Positions 16,633 to 47,155 of a stretch of 64,000 bases of DNA are shown piece after piece. The notes beneath the pieces are model-generated. The model did no database searches. It worked only from the letters and a program-made list of their open reading frames with translations, and was not told the DNA's origin. The position numbers were made by a program, and so were the translations under genes. This DNA comes from Candidatus Gastranaerophilales bacterium (lineage in GTDB: Bacteria > Cyanobacteriota > Vampirovibrionia > Gastranaerophilales > Gastranaerophilaceae): assembly GCA_944323695.1 (NCBI GenBank), contig CALUTI010000001.1:186001-250000 (forward strand). Direction: 5' to 3'. The first letter of the stretch is position 1. Each line of letters starts with the position of its first letter.

Positions 16633-17639
16633 TTAATCCCACGGATAATCGTCTTTAATTTCCCAGCCGTCCATCTCAATAAGTCTTGAACAATACGAAC
16701 CCGGACCGATTATCCCACCAACAGCCTTAGGATTACACTGACCGGACGTGCCCGGTATTAATAAGTCGACTCTTCTAAGCAAGTTACCATTTTGCCAATA
16801 CTGATCATAAGTAGTTAATTTATCCTTTACAAATGAGAACACAAAAATATCCTTTCCAACAATATTCGGATTAGATTTGCCATTTAAATCTACTATAAGT
16901 GTAAGCCATATAACGGTATCAGTAATATTTGGCAGATAAAATAACGTATTCCCGTTCGTCAATTGAGCTACCTGACTTATATTCTTGCCATGCACCTTTC
17001 CATCTAGACTTGTAATCTCATATGCATCCGTAATTTCCATAATTTTTACATAAGGAGCAAAATATTTGTTAATAAAAGAAATATTGTCCAAATCATAATC
17101 CCATTTTGATGGAGAACCATTTTCCATTACTGAAAACTGCATTATCTGCTGCAATAATGCATATGCCTGTTTTAGCTTTACTACCGTTTGTTTTTTTTGA
17201 TAATTGGATACAAGTGTCGGTATTGTCATCGCGGCAACAATTCCGATAATTGCTAAGGTTATTAACACCTCTGCTAATGTAAATGCTGCTTTAACTTTTT
17301 TGTCATTCCGAACTTGTTTCGGAATCTCTATATGGGATCCTGAAATAAATTCAGGATGACAAATACCTTTTTGACATTTACTAATCTTCTCTCCAACTTC
17401 AGGTATCTCACAAGGGGAATATGTCTTTGAGACCATAGCGGAGCCGGAGGTGAGAGCGGGAGCGAGCAGAGGCTGAAGGGCTTTGCGCAGGCAAAGACCG
17501 TAACGCCGTTTCATGCGAGCGACCAAGACAGCGTCGTCTCGAAAACAATTCCTGACTATCGCTATACCTTCAAAACCCTTGCTATTTCTATTTAGGAGAG
17601 ATGCCCCCCCCCGTTTCCTAGGTTTTTCATCATCTTCAT
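16633..17639 (-). CDS. Type IV prepilin-like protein, out of frame behind a G9 tract (phase-off)
   Basis: The pilin body shows the class III-like signal A-A-F-T-L-A-E-V-L-I-T-L-A-I-I-G-I-V (cleavage near residue 118 if read from 17639) and a secreted C-terminal domain of about 200 residues. The only well-placed start is the ATG at 17639: it has AAGGAG 8-9 bases upstream and a good promoter. From it, nine Gs (17612-17604) lead into a TAA after 14 codons. One extra G joins it to the pilin frame. The ORF is otherwise open from about 17526. The leader is very long and contains translated palindromic repeats. It may be switched by slipped-strand change at the tract. Confidence 0.7.
17301..17360. 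repeat. two short dispersed palindromes inside a prepilin leader
   Basis: TGTCATTCCGAAC / GTTTCGGAATC (17301-17328) and GATCCTGAA / TTCAGGATGAC (17336-17360). The second palindrome recurs at 35651-35675 and, with changes, near 46814. In the minus frame they encode part of the prepilin leader. Confidence 0.65.
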
Positions 17640-17664
17640 AAGCTTTTCTCCTTTTTATAAAAGT

Positions 17665-23117: not shown

Positions 23118-23837
23118 ATGACAAAAAAGGCTTTTACATTGGCAGAGGTTTTAATAACCCTGGCAATCATCGGCGTTGTGGCGGCGATGACGATTCCGAC
23201 TTTGATTAGTAATTATCAGGAAAAACAAACAGTTACACGAGTAAAAGCTGCATATTCACTCTTAAACAATGCGGTAATGATGGCAGTTGCAGAAAACGGA
23301 CCGGTAAACAGCTGGTTCACCGGCAGTCGAACAGAAAGTGGACAGCAGAATTATTACACATTTTCTCCGATGATTTTATATAAAATTACCCCTTATTTAA
23401 AGACATTATTTACCTGCGATAATATCTATGACTGCCAACCCTACAGATATACAATGAAAAATTTAATTGGTATCACTGATAACGAAACAAACATGTTGAA
23501 CGTAACAGGTATCAAATTGCTAAACGGGACATATATAAGAATACTTTCAACCGGAACGTGCGAACAACAATATGAAATTATGGATGCATGCGCAACAATC
23601 GATATTGACATAAATGCGCAAAATCCGCCAAACCAGCTGGGCAGAGATATTTTCAGATTTGTAATCAATAAACAAGGTTATGTTCTTCCGAGAAAGTTTG
23701 ACCCAAACCGTTGTAATCTAACAAGTACAAGTTATGTAAACGGTGGTGCATGTACAGAATGGGTGATAAAAAAAGGAAATCTGAATTATTTAAAATGTGA
23801 CGGTCTGAGTATTAACGGTAAAGATACTTGCGACTAA
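23118..23837 (+). CDS. Type IV prepilin-like protein, in frame
   Basis: 239 residues with a short ordinary leader, M-T-K-K, before A-F-T-L-A-E-V-L-I-T-L-A-I-I-G-V-V-A-A. The hydrophobic helix continues to about residue 30 and then the usual S-N-Y-Q-E-K-Q-T-V stretch. The C-terminal domain has several Cys (near T-C-D-N-I-Y-D-C and G-A-C-T-E-W). It has no homopolymer tract, unlike the four other large prepilins here. Expression is probably set by the divergent XRE protein. Confidence 0.85.
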   Translation: MTKKAFTLAEVLITLAIIGVVAAMTIPTLISNYQEKQTVTRVKAAYSLLNNAVMMAVAENGPVNSWFTGSRTESGQQNYYTFSPMILYKITPYLKTLFTCDNIYDCQPYRYTMKNLIGITDNETNMLNVTGIKLLNGTYIRILSTGTCEQQYEIMDACATIDIDINAQNPPNQLGRDIFRFVINKQGYVLPRKFDPNRCNLTSTSYVNGGACTEWVIKKGNLNYLKCDGLSINGKDTCD

Positions 23838-29959: not shown

Positions 29960-29990
29960 AAATACGTATAGAATATTTGGAGGTTAAAAA

Positions 29991-31063
29991 ATGGGCGTAA
30001 ATACACACCATAACTATATTTCTTTCAGGGGGGGGGGGGCACTAGCTTAACCTCCTGCGGCTTCACTCTTGCCGAAGTCTTAATTACTCTTGCAATTATC
30101 GGTATCGTCGCTGCCATGACTATTCCTACTCTTGTCGCTAATTACCAGAACAAAGCCTGGAATACTTCCGCTCAAGTTTTTGAAAGAAAATTAGAAGAAG
30201 CTTTAAAAACCATGAACACTCAACAGGTTTTAGCCGGGTATTCCAATACCGCTGATTTCGTTTCCGCTTTGGGTAAATATTTTAAAATTACCAAGGTCTG
30301 TGCTAATGACGATATTATGTCCTGTTTTGAAGATAAAGTCTTTTGGGGTGATCAAGAAGTTGACATGACTAACATTAAAAATGCTAAAAACTTTGGTCAG
30401 GAAGATTGGGATACCGAAACTATCGGTGTGCAATTCGCTAATGGTACTACAGGACTTATTGCTTACAATCCTGAGTGTAAAGAACAGCCTTTTACTAATC
30501 AATTCAACGGCACTTCCTGTTTAGCTATTCTGTATGATACAACCGGTTCCAAAACACCTAATACTCAGCAAAAAGATTTAAGAAGTATTAATGTTATCGC
30601 TCTTGACGGCAGCAACTGTGCTTTTGAAATTAATGGCACTTGTTTTACAGCTCCTTTTTATCCTGAGCGATTAACAAAAGCTGAATGTGAAGAAATAAAA
30701 GATGATCTGGGAATAAATGAATGTTTACCTTATAATAGGCCTTATGATTCTTGGGCTGGAGCTGTAAAGGCTTGCGGAGGGGTTAGTAAAATGCCAACTA
30801 AGGAACAACTAGCATTACTCTCCGAAGAAATTTATGGAAGAACCATAACTGGATCTGCATATGATATAAAAGGCTGGAATAAAGACAAAGTTGACGAAAT
30901 GGGATTTGACACTTCTTCCAGACCAAACTATTTCACAGTTTGGTCTGGACAGGAATATCGCAACGGCACCGCATACAGCTACTTTTTCAGTACTTCCCAA
31001 ATGGTCTATAACAGCCATAACCGTACAAATGGCAGTTATCAGGCAGTTTGCATAGGTGATTAA
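29991..31063 (+). CDS. Prepilin with hypervariable lectin-like C-terminus, out of frame behind a G12 tract
   Basis: From ATG 29991 the frame reads M-G-V-N-T-H-H-N-Y-I-S-F-R-G then stops at 30048-30050 because the G tract (30028-30039) has 12 bases. With 13 (or 10) it continues into S-C-G-F-T-L-A-E-V-L-I-T-L-A-I-I-G and on to 31063. The pilin body is followed by A-V-K-A-C-G-G-V-S-K-M-P-T, and a final domain resembling DUF1566/C-type-lectin folds: Y-F-T-V-W-S-G-Q-E-Y, variable residues, A-V-C-I-G-D. The N-terminal I-S-F-R-G also fits the shared F-motif. It is related along its length to the gene at 34245. Confidence 0.75.
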
Positions 31064-31067
31064 TAAC

Positions 31068-31177
31068 ACCCTCACCTGTATTTGTAGCTCGCTTTGCTCG
31101 CACAACTACTTCCCTCTCCCAGCGGGAGAGGGCTTGGGAGAGGGGGCAGCGAGTAGGTTGGGCATACTTGCCCAACA
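31068..31177. repeat. composite palindromic repeats downstream of the variable prepilin gene
   Basis: CCCTCACC at 31070, then CTCGCTTTGCTCG, then CCCTCTCCC AGC GGGAGAGGG (about 31105-31125) and GGGAGAGGGGGC, then the GGGCATACTTGCCC palindrome (31154-31177). The first part repeats at 46850-46911. Confidence 0.7.
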
Positions 31178-31383
31178 GTAAATCCTTAGTGCCTTACTGC
31201 CTTAGTATCTTTATCGGAGATTCTTCGCTACGCTCAGAATGACATTATCTTGTCGTGGCTTTGGCTCCCCTAACAAAAACATGAATAGGCATACCAAAAT
31301 TATCAAACATGATGTCGTGCCTTTGGCACCCCTTTTCCCATGACAAAATTTATGCTATAATTCAATTACAGAAGGTGGAAATT
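31178..31383. other. non-coding gap with repeat fragments before the NfnA-like operon
   Basis: Holds TCTTCGCTACGCTCAGAATGAC (31220-31242; also present inverted near 46921), then nothing clear. TATAAT-type boxes near 31350 (TGCTATAATTC) could drive the operon; the AGAAGGTGG ribosome site is at 31371-31379. Confidence 0.5.
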
Positions 31384-34222: not shown

Positions 34223-34244
34223 GAAGAAAAAAGGAGGATTAAAT

Positions 34245-35404
34245 ATGTTGAAAAAGGTTGTTACAAAAGCGGTTCAGATAGTCGCCCCCCCCCGAGGTTG
34301 ACACTATATAAGGGTTTTACCCTTGCTGAGGGTGCTACGCACGTAGGTATGTGTGACAATGTTCGTAGATTTGCCTTTACTTTGGCCGAAGTTCTAATTA
34401 CTCTGGCTATTATCGGAGTCGTTGCCGCCATGACTATTCCGACTTTGGTGCAGAATTATCAGGAACGTTCATGGAATACTGCATCTACTGTGTTCCAAAG
34501 AAAATTAGGTGAAGCCTTAACTGTTATGAACACTCAGGGCTCTCTTGCAGGTTATCAGGATACTGAGGATTTCGTTGCCGAACTCTCTAAACACATGAAA
34601 ATCTCTAAAATCTGCAAAAATGACGACCTGATGTCCTGCTTTGAAGATAAAGTTATCTGGGGCGCGGAAAATGAAGAAGTTGATATGACTAAAGTTAAAA
34701 ATGTTTCACACTTTGGACAAGACGAATGGGAAGAAACTGACATTGTTGGCGCTATGTTTGCTGACGGAACTACTGCTCTTATTGCTTACAACAAAGATTG
34801 TAAACAGGATCCCTACAGCAACAGAGTTATTAATATATCTGAGCAGGGGATAGGCACTGATTGTTTAGCTATTCTTTATGACACCTCAGGATTTAAAACT
34901 CCTAATACTCAACAAAAAGATTTAAGAGGTTTGAATATTGCAAGTCTTGGCGGAAGTAACTGTGCTTTTGAAATCAACGGCACTTGCTTCACTGCCCCGT
35001 TCACGCCTACTCCGTTAACTAAAACAGAGTGTGAAGAATTAAAAGGTGACCTTAGAATATCCAAATGTCACTCGTCCTCGTTACCTGACTACTGGGCAGG
35101 AGCAGTAAAAGCCTGCGGAGGCGTAAGCAAGATGCCGACAGCTGCCCAGCTAGCAGAGATAGTAAACTATGTATACAACACATCGGGCATTGGCGCAAAA
35201 GAAGATGTATCCCATTCAACACTTGACACCGACAAGGTAGTCGAGTTAGGCTTCACTCACAGTAATGGTTACTTCGACGTGTGGTCCGGCGAGGAGTATG
35301 TAAGCGACATGGCGTACGTCCGCCGTTGCGGTCCTACCTTTGCATATTGGGGCGGCTACAACCGCTACAATCCCGCTCCACTGGCGGTTTGCATTGGTGA
35401 TTGA
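34245..35404 (+). CDS. Prepilin with hypervariable lectin-like C-terminus, out of frame behind a C9 tract
   Basis: ATG 34245 has an AAGGAGG site. Its frame reads M-L-K-K-V-V-T-K-A-V-Q-I-V-A-P-P-R-G then stops at 34299-34301. One more C in the tract (34285-34293) joins it to the prepilin frame, which holds K-G-F-T-L-A-E and then the true signal A-F-T-L-A-E-V-L-I-T-L-A-I-I-G. The mature part parallels the gene at 29991 (M-N-T-Q, C-F-E-D-K-V, T-P-N-T-Q-Q-K-D-L-R, C-A-F-E-I-N-G-T-C-F-T-A-P-F). It ends in Y-F-D-V-W-S-G-E-E-Y, a variable stretch and A-V-C-I-G-D. The last 250 bases are visibly richer in GC than the body. Confidence 0.75.
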
Positions 35405-35407
35405 TAA

Positions 35408-35914
35408 AACCCTCACCCGAATTTCTAAACTCACAAGTTCGTTAAAAAGTCAGTAGGTTGGGCATACCTGCCCAACAGAAAACCCTTAGTTGTAGGCATT
35501 ACTATGCCAAAAAATTTCTGTCGGATTAGTAAATCCGACCTACCATCTACAGCGCTGATTGTCATTACGAGGAGAATGCGCAGCATTCGACGTAGTAATC
35601 GCAGTGTTGTGGAGTAATGTCAATGCCTTCCTGCATATAAATAATAATGAGATCCTGAAACGAGTTCAGGATGACTAAATAATGGATTGCGACGGTCGCT
35701 TCGCTCCCTCGCAATGACATTGCCTGAGGCAGGACAACAGATTAGGTATTGGTAGTACGTTCATGTGGTTGTGCCTTTGCACCCTTGCAATGACATCATA
35801 AATTACATTAGTATCTTACTGCCTTCTGGTATCTTTATCAAAAAAATTAAATATATTTATCTTTTGTGCTAAAATAAATGGGTAAATGACCATTTTTTAG
35901 AAAGGACAGAGGAT
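35408..35914. repeat. 507-base gene-free repeat cluster before purA
   Basis: Contains CCCTCACCCG (35410-35419), the GGGCATACCTGCCC palindrome (35454-35476), GTCGGATTAGTAAATCCGAC (35519-35538), a 40-base element (35561-35600, exact copy at 46760-46799), GATCCTGAA / TTCAGGATGAC (35651-35675) and a GATTGCGACGGTCG...CCTCGCAATGAC palindrome (35685-35717). The last 90 bases hold the purA promoter region (TGTGCTAAAATAAATG) and ribosome site. No gene is seen. Confidence 0.75.
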
Positions 35915-46030: not shown

Positions 46031-47130
46031 TCAAAGCTCATTGCGCTCAAGTTTTGAAATCATAGCCGTTGTTCCGGTGCCGCCTTCCTCAACAGCCATG
46101 CAACCGCCCTCCGAATATCTGAATCTTTGACCATCAGATCTAATAATAAAAGAGTACAAATCATATCCCCACTTATTGGGTCCTTTCATACCGTTTGTAT
46201 CAACAGCAATTAATTTAACGCCATACCCTACTACGTCATATGGAAATATTATGGTGCCATCTGCCAAAACATATACAGTTCTGTCATTTAAAATAGCATT
46301 TTTTCTGAAATTAGTACAGTCTCTTGAGACATATTCTCCGTAATCTTCATATCCGTCAGGAACTTCTGCATCCGGATTATTTGCCGTGCTCACCGTATCC
46401 ATTCCCTCATATTCAGGAATACAGCCATCCACATGGGCGTTTCCTTCACATTTTTTTACCACTTTTAATGATGAAAAAAATTTTTCAGATACATCCACGC
46501 AATCCGTTGACGGACCTATCGAAGTACCGCTAAGATAATAACATCTTGGTAAATAATCATATTGTGCCAGTACATTTAATAACGTCTGATTAATCAATGC
46601 ATACGCTTTTTTAAATTGTGTATTAAGTGATTTTTGTTGATAATTAGCAACCAACGTCGGAATCGTCATTGCCGCCACGATTCCGATTATTCCTAAGGTT
46701 ATTAACACTTCTGCTAAAGTGAAGGCGGCTTTCTTTTTAAAGTCGTTAAGTTCTTTACTGTCATTACGAGGAGAATGCGCAGCATTCGACGTAGTAATCC
46801 CATTATTATCGTCATCCTGAACTGGTTTCAGGATCTCTTTTTTACCCTCACCCGAAGTTGTAACTCGCTTTGCTCGAACAACTTCTCCCTCTCCCAGCGG
46901 TAGAGGGGAATTACTTCTGTCATTCTGAGCGGTAGCGAAGAATCTCTTGAGATCCTTCGGCTTCGCCTCAGGATGACGGATGTCCGCATAACCTTTGCTC
47001 TTTTCGGCACCAACTTCCGGTGTATTCTCACCAACATACAATGTGTTGTCGTGCCTATGGCACAAGCCCTTGCTATTTCTACCTAGGAGAGACGCCCCCC
47101 CCCGTTTTTGAAAATTTTTCTTATCGTCAT
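46031..47130 (-). CDS. Type IV prepilin-like protein, out of frame behind a G9 tract (phase-off)
   Basis: ATG 47130 follows AAGGAG and a TTGCAA-N17-TATAAT promoter. It reads M-T-I-R-K-I-F-K-N-G-G-G then stops after the nine-G tract (47103-47095). One more G gives N-G-G-G-A-S-L-L-G-R-N-S-K-G and runs, through about 130 codons of repeat-derived leader, into A-A-F-T-L-A-E-V-L-I-T-L-G-I-I-G-I-V. The mature part has paired Cys and the C-terminus S-E-G-G-C-M-A-V-E-E-G-G-T-G. The tract and 30 flanking bases match those at 17581-17640. Confidence 0.7.
46760..46799. repeat. 40-base dispersed repeat inside a prepilin leader
   Basis: Starts GTCATTACGAGGAGAATGCG and ends ACGTAGTAATC; base-for-base identical to 35561-35600. 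The core AATGCGCAGCATT is a near palindrome. Confidence 0.75.
46808..46977. repeat. run of dispersed palindromes encoding prepilin leader
   Basis: ATCCTGAACTGG..CAGGAT (46814-46834), CCCTCACCCGAAG with CTCGCTTTGCTCG and CCCTCTCCCAGCGG (46850-46911; partner copy 31068-31125), and CATTCTGAGCGGTAGCGAAG ... CTCAGGATGAC (46920-46977). All are read as protein in the minus frame. Confidence 0.65.
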
Positions 47131-47155
47131 CAGCTTTTCTCCTTATCTTAAATTT

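Follow-up and report, generated by a model that had tools for sequence, protein, structure and literature searches.

A large repertoire of prepilin genes in the genome of a Candidatus Gastranaerophilales bacterium very probably undergoes slipped-strand phase variation, with the switch itself being an exchangeable module. The genome measures 1.73 Mb, and its G+C content is taken as 36.6% from the window, by which we mean the whole 64,000-nucleotide stretch of DNA that was analyzed. Four prepilin genes in the window bear a switch (genes 1 to 4) and one is free of tracts. In the mechanism we propose, each cassette would act as a translational phase-variation switch in which a poly-G or poly-C run lies past the start site, and the length of this run would shift by slipped-strand replication errors. 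When the run length is 10 (mod 3), translation would proceed through a long leader and on into the type IV prepilin, and prepilin peptidase is predicted to cut this product ahead of FTLAEV; at a length of 9 or 11, the ribosome would encounter a stop within about 10 to 15 nt. With about 67 switches in this one 1.7-Mb genome, the system could yield a huge combinatorial pilus repertoire that would be mostly OFF at any time. Slipped-strand phase variation would explain why there is a tract with dual stops, why the ON class is fixed and lengths differ, and why the targets are surface structures.

The first-pass annotation had drawn attention to two near-identical start cassettes located 29 kb apart, and both are found exactly where it placed them, complete with Shine-Dalgarno (SD) sequence, ATG, G9 tract and stops in both wrong frames. 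On the minus strand, gene 1 has an SD recognized from its sequence (AAGGAG, 17648-17653), an ATG at 17639 that opens a 15-codon OFF frame in the G9 state (17592-17639), and a G9 tract that reads as C on the plus strand (17604-17612). Directly past the tract lies a dual-frame stop trap, TAA...TAG, at +9 and +13 (17588-17594). A long, stop-free ON-frame leader built of dispersed repeats (17284-17603) then joins the tract to the prepilin core and body (FTLAEVLITL..., 216 aa; 16633-17283). Gene 2, also on the minus strand, has the same arrangement: an AAGGAG SD (47139-47144), an ATG at 47130 with its OFF frame (47083-47130), a G9 tract (47095-47103), a repeat-derived ON-frame leader of 371 nt (46724-47094), and a prepilin core and body (46031-46723). 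Both carry cassette A and have the post-tract segment CRTCTCTCCTARRTAGAAATAGCAAGGG in common. Reading the frames confirms for both copies that nine G lead to an early stop and that one more G opens a long leader. The G9 products are 15-aa peptides, MKMMKNLGNGGGHLS and MTIRKIFKNGGGRLS, each ending at a stop, and G10 places leaders of 320 nt (gene 1) and 371 nt (gene 2) in frame with FTLAEVLITL prepilin cores.

Recent duplication of the whole gene had been named beforehand as an alternative for these two copies, and it can be ruled out. Genes 1 and 2 align in two places, at 77.7% over 121 nt in the region of promoter and cassette and at 80% over 110 nt in the N-terminal helix of the pilin, and the pairwise comparison gave no match in the leader or the body, which also bears out the earlier remark that the pilin bodies differ. 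Because the likeness is confined to the promoter-cassette and the helix, the pair did not arise by recent duplication of a whole gene.

Two further prepilin genes with tracts, absent from the first-pass annotation, lie on the plus strand of the window and use other cassettes, and dozens more are present in the genome. Gene 3 carries cassette B, with an SD (GGAGG, 29979-29983), an ATG at 29991, and a G12 tract (30028-30039) that leaves the gene OFF, the two OFF frames running into TAG and TAA past it; the prepilin core and body span 30062-31063. Gene 4 carries cassette C, with an SD at 34233-34237, an ATG at 34245, and a C9 tract (34285-34293) past which the OFF frames close with TGA and TAA, ahead of the core and body (34376-35404). 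The tract-free prepilin (23118-23837, plus strand) has an ordinary short leader and serves as a contrast case. Runs of at least eight G occupy 11 overlapping places in the window compared to a shuffle mean of 0.22, and this count lies above that of every shuffle.

The prepilin identity of these products is supported by several matches. Four window proteins score above the cut-off for TIGR02532, the prepilin N-terminal domain, and a profile built from yebC-side bodies (gene 1 lies on that side) matches solved type IV pilins. A structure model of protein P0001 (pLDDT of 77.6) has a helix from residue 3 to 55 and then strands; a fold comparison of the pilin head from this model with the PDB gave no match with E below 0.1. 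For processing, there is one PF01478 match over the cut-off, a prepilin peptidase at C4:99711.

The association between tracts and prepilins extends over the whole genome, which contains 84 matches to the prepilin N-terminus and 72 poly-G/C runs of at least 8, where composition predicts about 3.5 to 7. The first-pass annotation had raised the matter of whether each cassette copy precedes a prepilin frame. This is the case for 60 of the 72 tracts: each has a listed prepilin core no more than 700 nt downstream, an arrangement with a positional P of about 1e-75. Another seven have the cassette but are situated at contig ends or ahead of long inserts, and the remaining five are elsewhere, all on contig C5. 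A 37-nt pattern representing the post-tract cassette has 17 copies in the genome (at most 3 mismatches), and the reversed control has none. Several contigs (C1:117, C7:117480, C11:222 and C14:16879) end in or just past a cassette and leader. Since these cassette and leader repeats break assemblies, the true copy numbers are probably higher.

The five C5 runs (C5:8861, 12709, 51422, 52751 and 59311) consist of 9 or 10 G/C and are not associated with prepilins. One follows a GDP-mannose dehydratase-like epimerase domain and another is inside a cytidylyltransferase gene. Genes for surface sugars are classical targets of phase variation, and the C5 tracts likely constitute a second, glycan-type phase-variable locus. 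The run at C5:52751 sits in an acetyltransferase-like open frame for which there was no Pfam match.

Among the 59 prepilin genes analyzed, all of which have a tract of 7 to 12 between SD/ATG and core, we distinguish four cassette types that are unrelated in sequence and yet follow one plan: SD, ATG, 20 to 45 nt, a G/C run, stops in both wrong frames, leader, and core. Type A (AAGGAGAAAAGC...ATG...G9-CRTCTCYYCTARRTAG) accounts for 40 of the 59 genes. Type B has the form GGAGGTT...ATGGGCGCAAATACGCATCACAACTA...G8-12-CAGTAGCTTAACCTCC, type C the form ...GCGGTTCAGATAGTCG-C9-10-GAG, and type D the form ...G9-11-CGACACTCTTAACCGCATAAGACAAGGG. In nearly all type A copies the stops fall at +9 and +13, as in gene 1, and both wrong frames reach a stop within 30 nt of the tract in 57 of the 59 genes. 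Measured from control points within these genes, the more distant of the two stops lies at a median of 53.5 nt. Many switch genes also have a promoter-like TTGNCA-N17-TATAAT directly 5' of the SD.

Most copies additionally carry, past the tract, a complement of the gene's own SD that changes with the SD from type to type (AGGAGA/TCTCCT in type A, GGAGGTTAA/TTAACCTCC in type B, and AGGAGT/ACTCTT in type D). That the SD (AGGAGA) pairs with the post-tract TCTCCT as an RNA hairpin is unproven: in single genes the complement does not exceed shuffles, folding gives a z of about -0.65, and the type A consensus fold pairs the G run rather than the SD with its post-tract complement.

The leaders between tract and core measure 6 to 198 codons. 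They contain no stop in 3,471 codons of the ON frame, whereas 226 and 400 stops occur in the two remaining frames, and these counts indicate that the ON frame of the leaders is under selection. For 54 of the 59 genes, the length that gives ON is 10 (mod 3); at C8:57549, an extra A ahead of the run makes nine G the ON length. These data bear on the idea that a duplicated prepilin family simply has these cassettes as its 5' ends, with the G9 copies being frameshifted pseudogenes that do not switch. Such decay would fit the observation that the majority of assembled copies are out of frame, but we consider it very unlikely. Nearly all genes retain full-length bodies, frame is kept throughout stop-free leaders of widely differing length, four unrelated cassettes carry the same stop trap, and the arrangement is conserved over many genera. 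The constraint on the ON frame alone refutes decay in most respects.

Tract lengths place most genes in the OFF state. Of 56 genes that were re-scored in the genome itself, 11 are ON, 42 need one more base and 3 need one fewer. The corresponding numbers are 3, 22 and 3 for 28 genes of G001, a relative belonging to another species, and 3, 26 and 1 for 30 genes at named loci of other Gastranaerophilales. Length 9, which is one base below ON, is the commonest in every genome examined, and lengths of 7 to 12 occur. We matched 21 tract pairs between the genome and G001 by their 5' flanks: 15 are equal at 9, and 6 differ in length. Gene 1 is G9 and OFF in the window genome versus G10 and ON in G001, and the gene 4 tract is C9 versus C8. 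Such state-changing differences between orthologous tracts, together with the dual-frame stops past the tract, support the earlier description of the cassette as a switch.

The same numbers can be read in another way, in which RNA polymerase or the ribosome would slip on G9 at a set rate, so that pilin is made at a constant low level and G9 is the selected length. In keeping with this programmed slippage, G9 tracts that need one more G form the majority in the genome, in G001 and in the named relatives. Nevertheless, tracts of other lengths and in all three frames occur, orthologues differ, and stops in both wrong frames directly past the tract suit a switch that can be shut. Nine G is also the dominant length in phase-variable tracts of Campylobacter, where 52% of poly-G lengths are 9G and 30% are 10G, such that a preponderance of 9G is normal (PMC6321876) and offers no argument against switching. 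We therefore regard programmed slippage as an unlikely explanation for the system, and as possible in the role of a minor leak at G9.

One might also ask whether the lengths are poly-G errors of assembly or sequencing, with all real genes being in frame. The genomes are metagenome-assembled and several contigs end at cassettes, which is in line with an artifact of this kind. However, runs of 8 to 12 are far from random, G9 recurs in independent assemblies, and dual stops would be purposeless in a gene that is always in frame, making this source of the lengths highly improbable.

Returning to slipped-strand switching, we find that the 5' module (promoter, start, tract and stop trap) and the pilin bodies are combined in mosaic fashion. 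The genes at C7:44876 and C7:63465 have the same body (97.5% nucleotide identity over 715 nt from the core) behind different cassettes and leaders, and near-identical cassettes are found ahead of bodies with about 26% identity. Over the type A genes, cassette similarity and body similarity are related with a rho of only 0.13. These three observations support the first-pass suggestion of a transferable module. Because genes are mosaic, we take the 5' switch and the body to move separately, and in the proposed mechanism they would recombine independently. Two further pairs, C3:124730/C11:27410 and C13:16296/C18:5848, have promoter, cassette, leader and N-terminal helix in common and then diverge. 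The joints appear to fall at the common cassette and helix, a position in keeping with homologous recombination. Between species, slots matched by their 5' flanks often hold unrelated bodies (25 to 28% identity at several), and others hold orthologous ones (51 to 100%). A separate observation concerns a switch-pilin locus at C4:204533 of the window's genome and on C75 of G001, which is 100% identical over 378 nt of 5' flank and 94 aa of the body where most orthologous flanks are at 75 to 91%; this identity reflects either recent interspecies transfer or cross-binned contigs.

It is unusual for a prepilin cleavage site to be preceded by a leader of 100 to 200 aa, and this counts against the proposed reading. 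Many of the leaders are patchworks of dispersed repeats, with gene-to-gene matches on the same strand (279) as well as on opposite strands (196). Copies of the leader repeats also occur outside prepilin leaders, for example downstream of window pilin genes (31068-31247 and 35410-35720). Within the gene 1 leader, 147 nt (about 17377-17523) are inverted relative to G001 at 96% identity between flanks of 98 to 100%, and both orientations are open in frame. Since prepilin peptidase should cut before FTLAEV, the leader would be discarded, and we infer that it provides a tolerant landing site for repeats. The leader data thereby pose the question of whether mobile repeats are absorbed cost-free by a processed leader.

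Ten switch-gene leaders contain an internal element, TTGACA-N17-TATAAT-N6-ATG-N3-AATTATA, that has no occurrence in the reversed control (C1:115936, C1:155511, C3:183501, C5:130554, C6:117691, C8:57701, C6:46832, C7:63406, C1:103160 and C3:150237). It carries a palindrome over the -10 and the start whose outer bases covary (T..A or C..G), and the ATG is in place in eight copies and missing from two. The element may represent a second, switch-independent promoter that gives a short, normal leader. These consensus promoters could bypass the switch, which would count against slipped-strand switching as the best explanation.

As to how widely the system is distributed, a scan for the type A pattern over 84,980 species, each represented by one genome, yielded only 50 stretches, and records of the window's own genome may be left out there; 49 of the stretches are titled Candidatus Gastranaerophilales and one is titled "uncultured bacterium". 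Across 36 genomes of the family, the median number of G8+ tracts is 39.5 (range 0 to 117) and that of prepilin matches is 69. The two counts are strongly related (rank correlation rho of 0.89), with prepilin counts in a few genomes being at least 116. The 23 genomes outside the family have medians of 2 tracts and 8 prepilin matches and show no positive correlation between the two. One member of the family, G020, has no G8+ tracts and 11 prepilin matches. A genome from another family, G039, has 79 prepilin matches and 2 tracts, and prepilin expansion can therefore occur without the switch.

With about sixty pilus-subunit genes bearing a switch, cells of one population should differ at random in their surface. 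We infer from the features described above that tracts switch within populations, that long leaders are cleaved, and that the pilins are exposed at the surface to the benefit of the cell. If so, random switching of dozens of pili diversifies the surface of a major gut lineage for which metagenomes are almost the only source of knowledge, on a scale that matches the best-known pathogens and yet within a single gene family. The breakage of contigs at cassettes would provide a ready explanation for the fragmented assemblies of this group, and strain-level pilus diversity would be predicted that is readable in existing metagenome reads.

A broader reading, to which we would assign even chances, is that type IV pilus diversity in Gastranaerophilaceae has three layers. 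An on/off poly-G switch would act on each of dozens of prepilins; bodies would be swapped among switch-bearing chromosomal slots via the common cassette and N-terminal helix; and leaders removed by the peptidase would safely host dispersed, sometimes inverted, in-frame repeats. It would give a common gut lineage, uncultured and neighboring the cyanobacteria, a strategy for varying its surface.

The slipped-strand contingency mechanism is already known. In the literature searched, we found no account of its use on dozens of prepilins by way of a near-identical cassette in a cyanobacterial relative that is non-photosynthetic. Searches on phase variation in Gastranaerophilales or Melainabacteria found nothing, and those on their pili returned general type IV pilus gene content only; most subscription journals lie outside the search, so novelty is not certain.

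Like the poly-G/C contingency loci of Campylobacter and Neisseria, the loci described here have in-frame runs of 8 to 12, most commonly 9 or 10, are ON in one frame of three, and have surface targets. The genes switched in those organisms belong to many families and are mostly modifying enzymes, adhesins and restriction systems. In contrast, about 93% of the tracts here serve one family, the prepilins, and their switch cassettes are near-identical, with stops in both wrong frames built in. The Rickettsia palindromic elements are a known case of dispersed repeats that sit in frame within coding genes, and by general description they resemble the leader repeats, here present in both orientations. 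Unlike the Rickettsia elements, these repeats build a leader, the part that prepilin peptidase should remove.

Pilus appearance is varied in Neisseria as well, where pilC is controlled by a homopolymer switch and pilE by recombination with silent pilS copies (PMC5953494). A silent-cassette arrangement of the pilE/pilS type does not describe the genes analyzed here. Tract-bearing prepilins have their own SD and ATG, many with an upstream promoter-like site, and we saw no sole expression site served by silent donors among them. Unlike in pilE/pilS, each individual pilin gene is equipped with a start, a promoter region and a switch, even though bodies are exchanged between slots. Finally, dozens of switches per genome are also found in other phasomes, which comprise 36 to 82 loci in N. 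lactamica and up to 54 in the gonococcus (PMC5953494). The number observed here (72 tracts, and up to 117 in a relative) is comparable or larger, and unlike those phasomes it is found in a small genome and is almost wholly devoted to one gene family.
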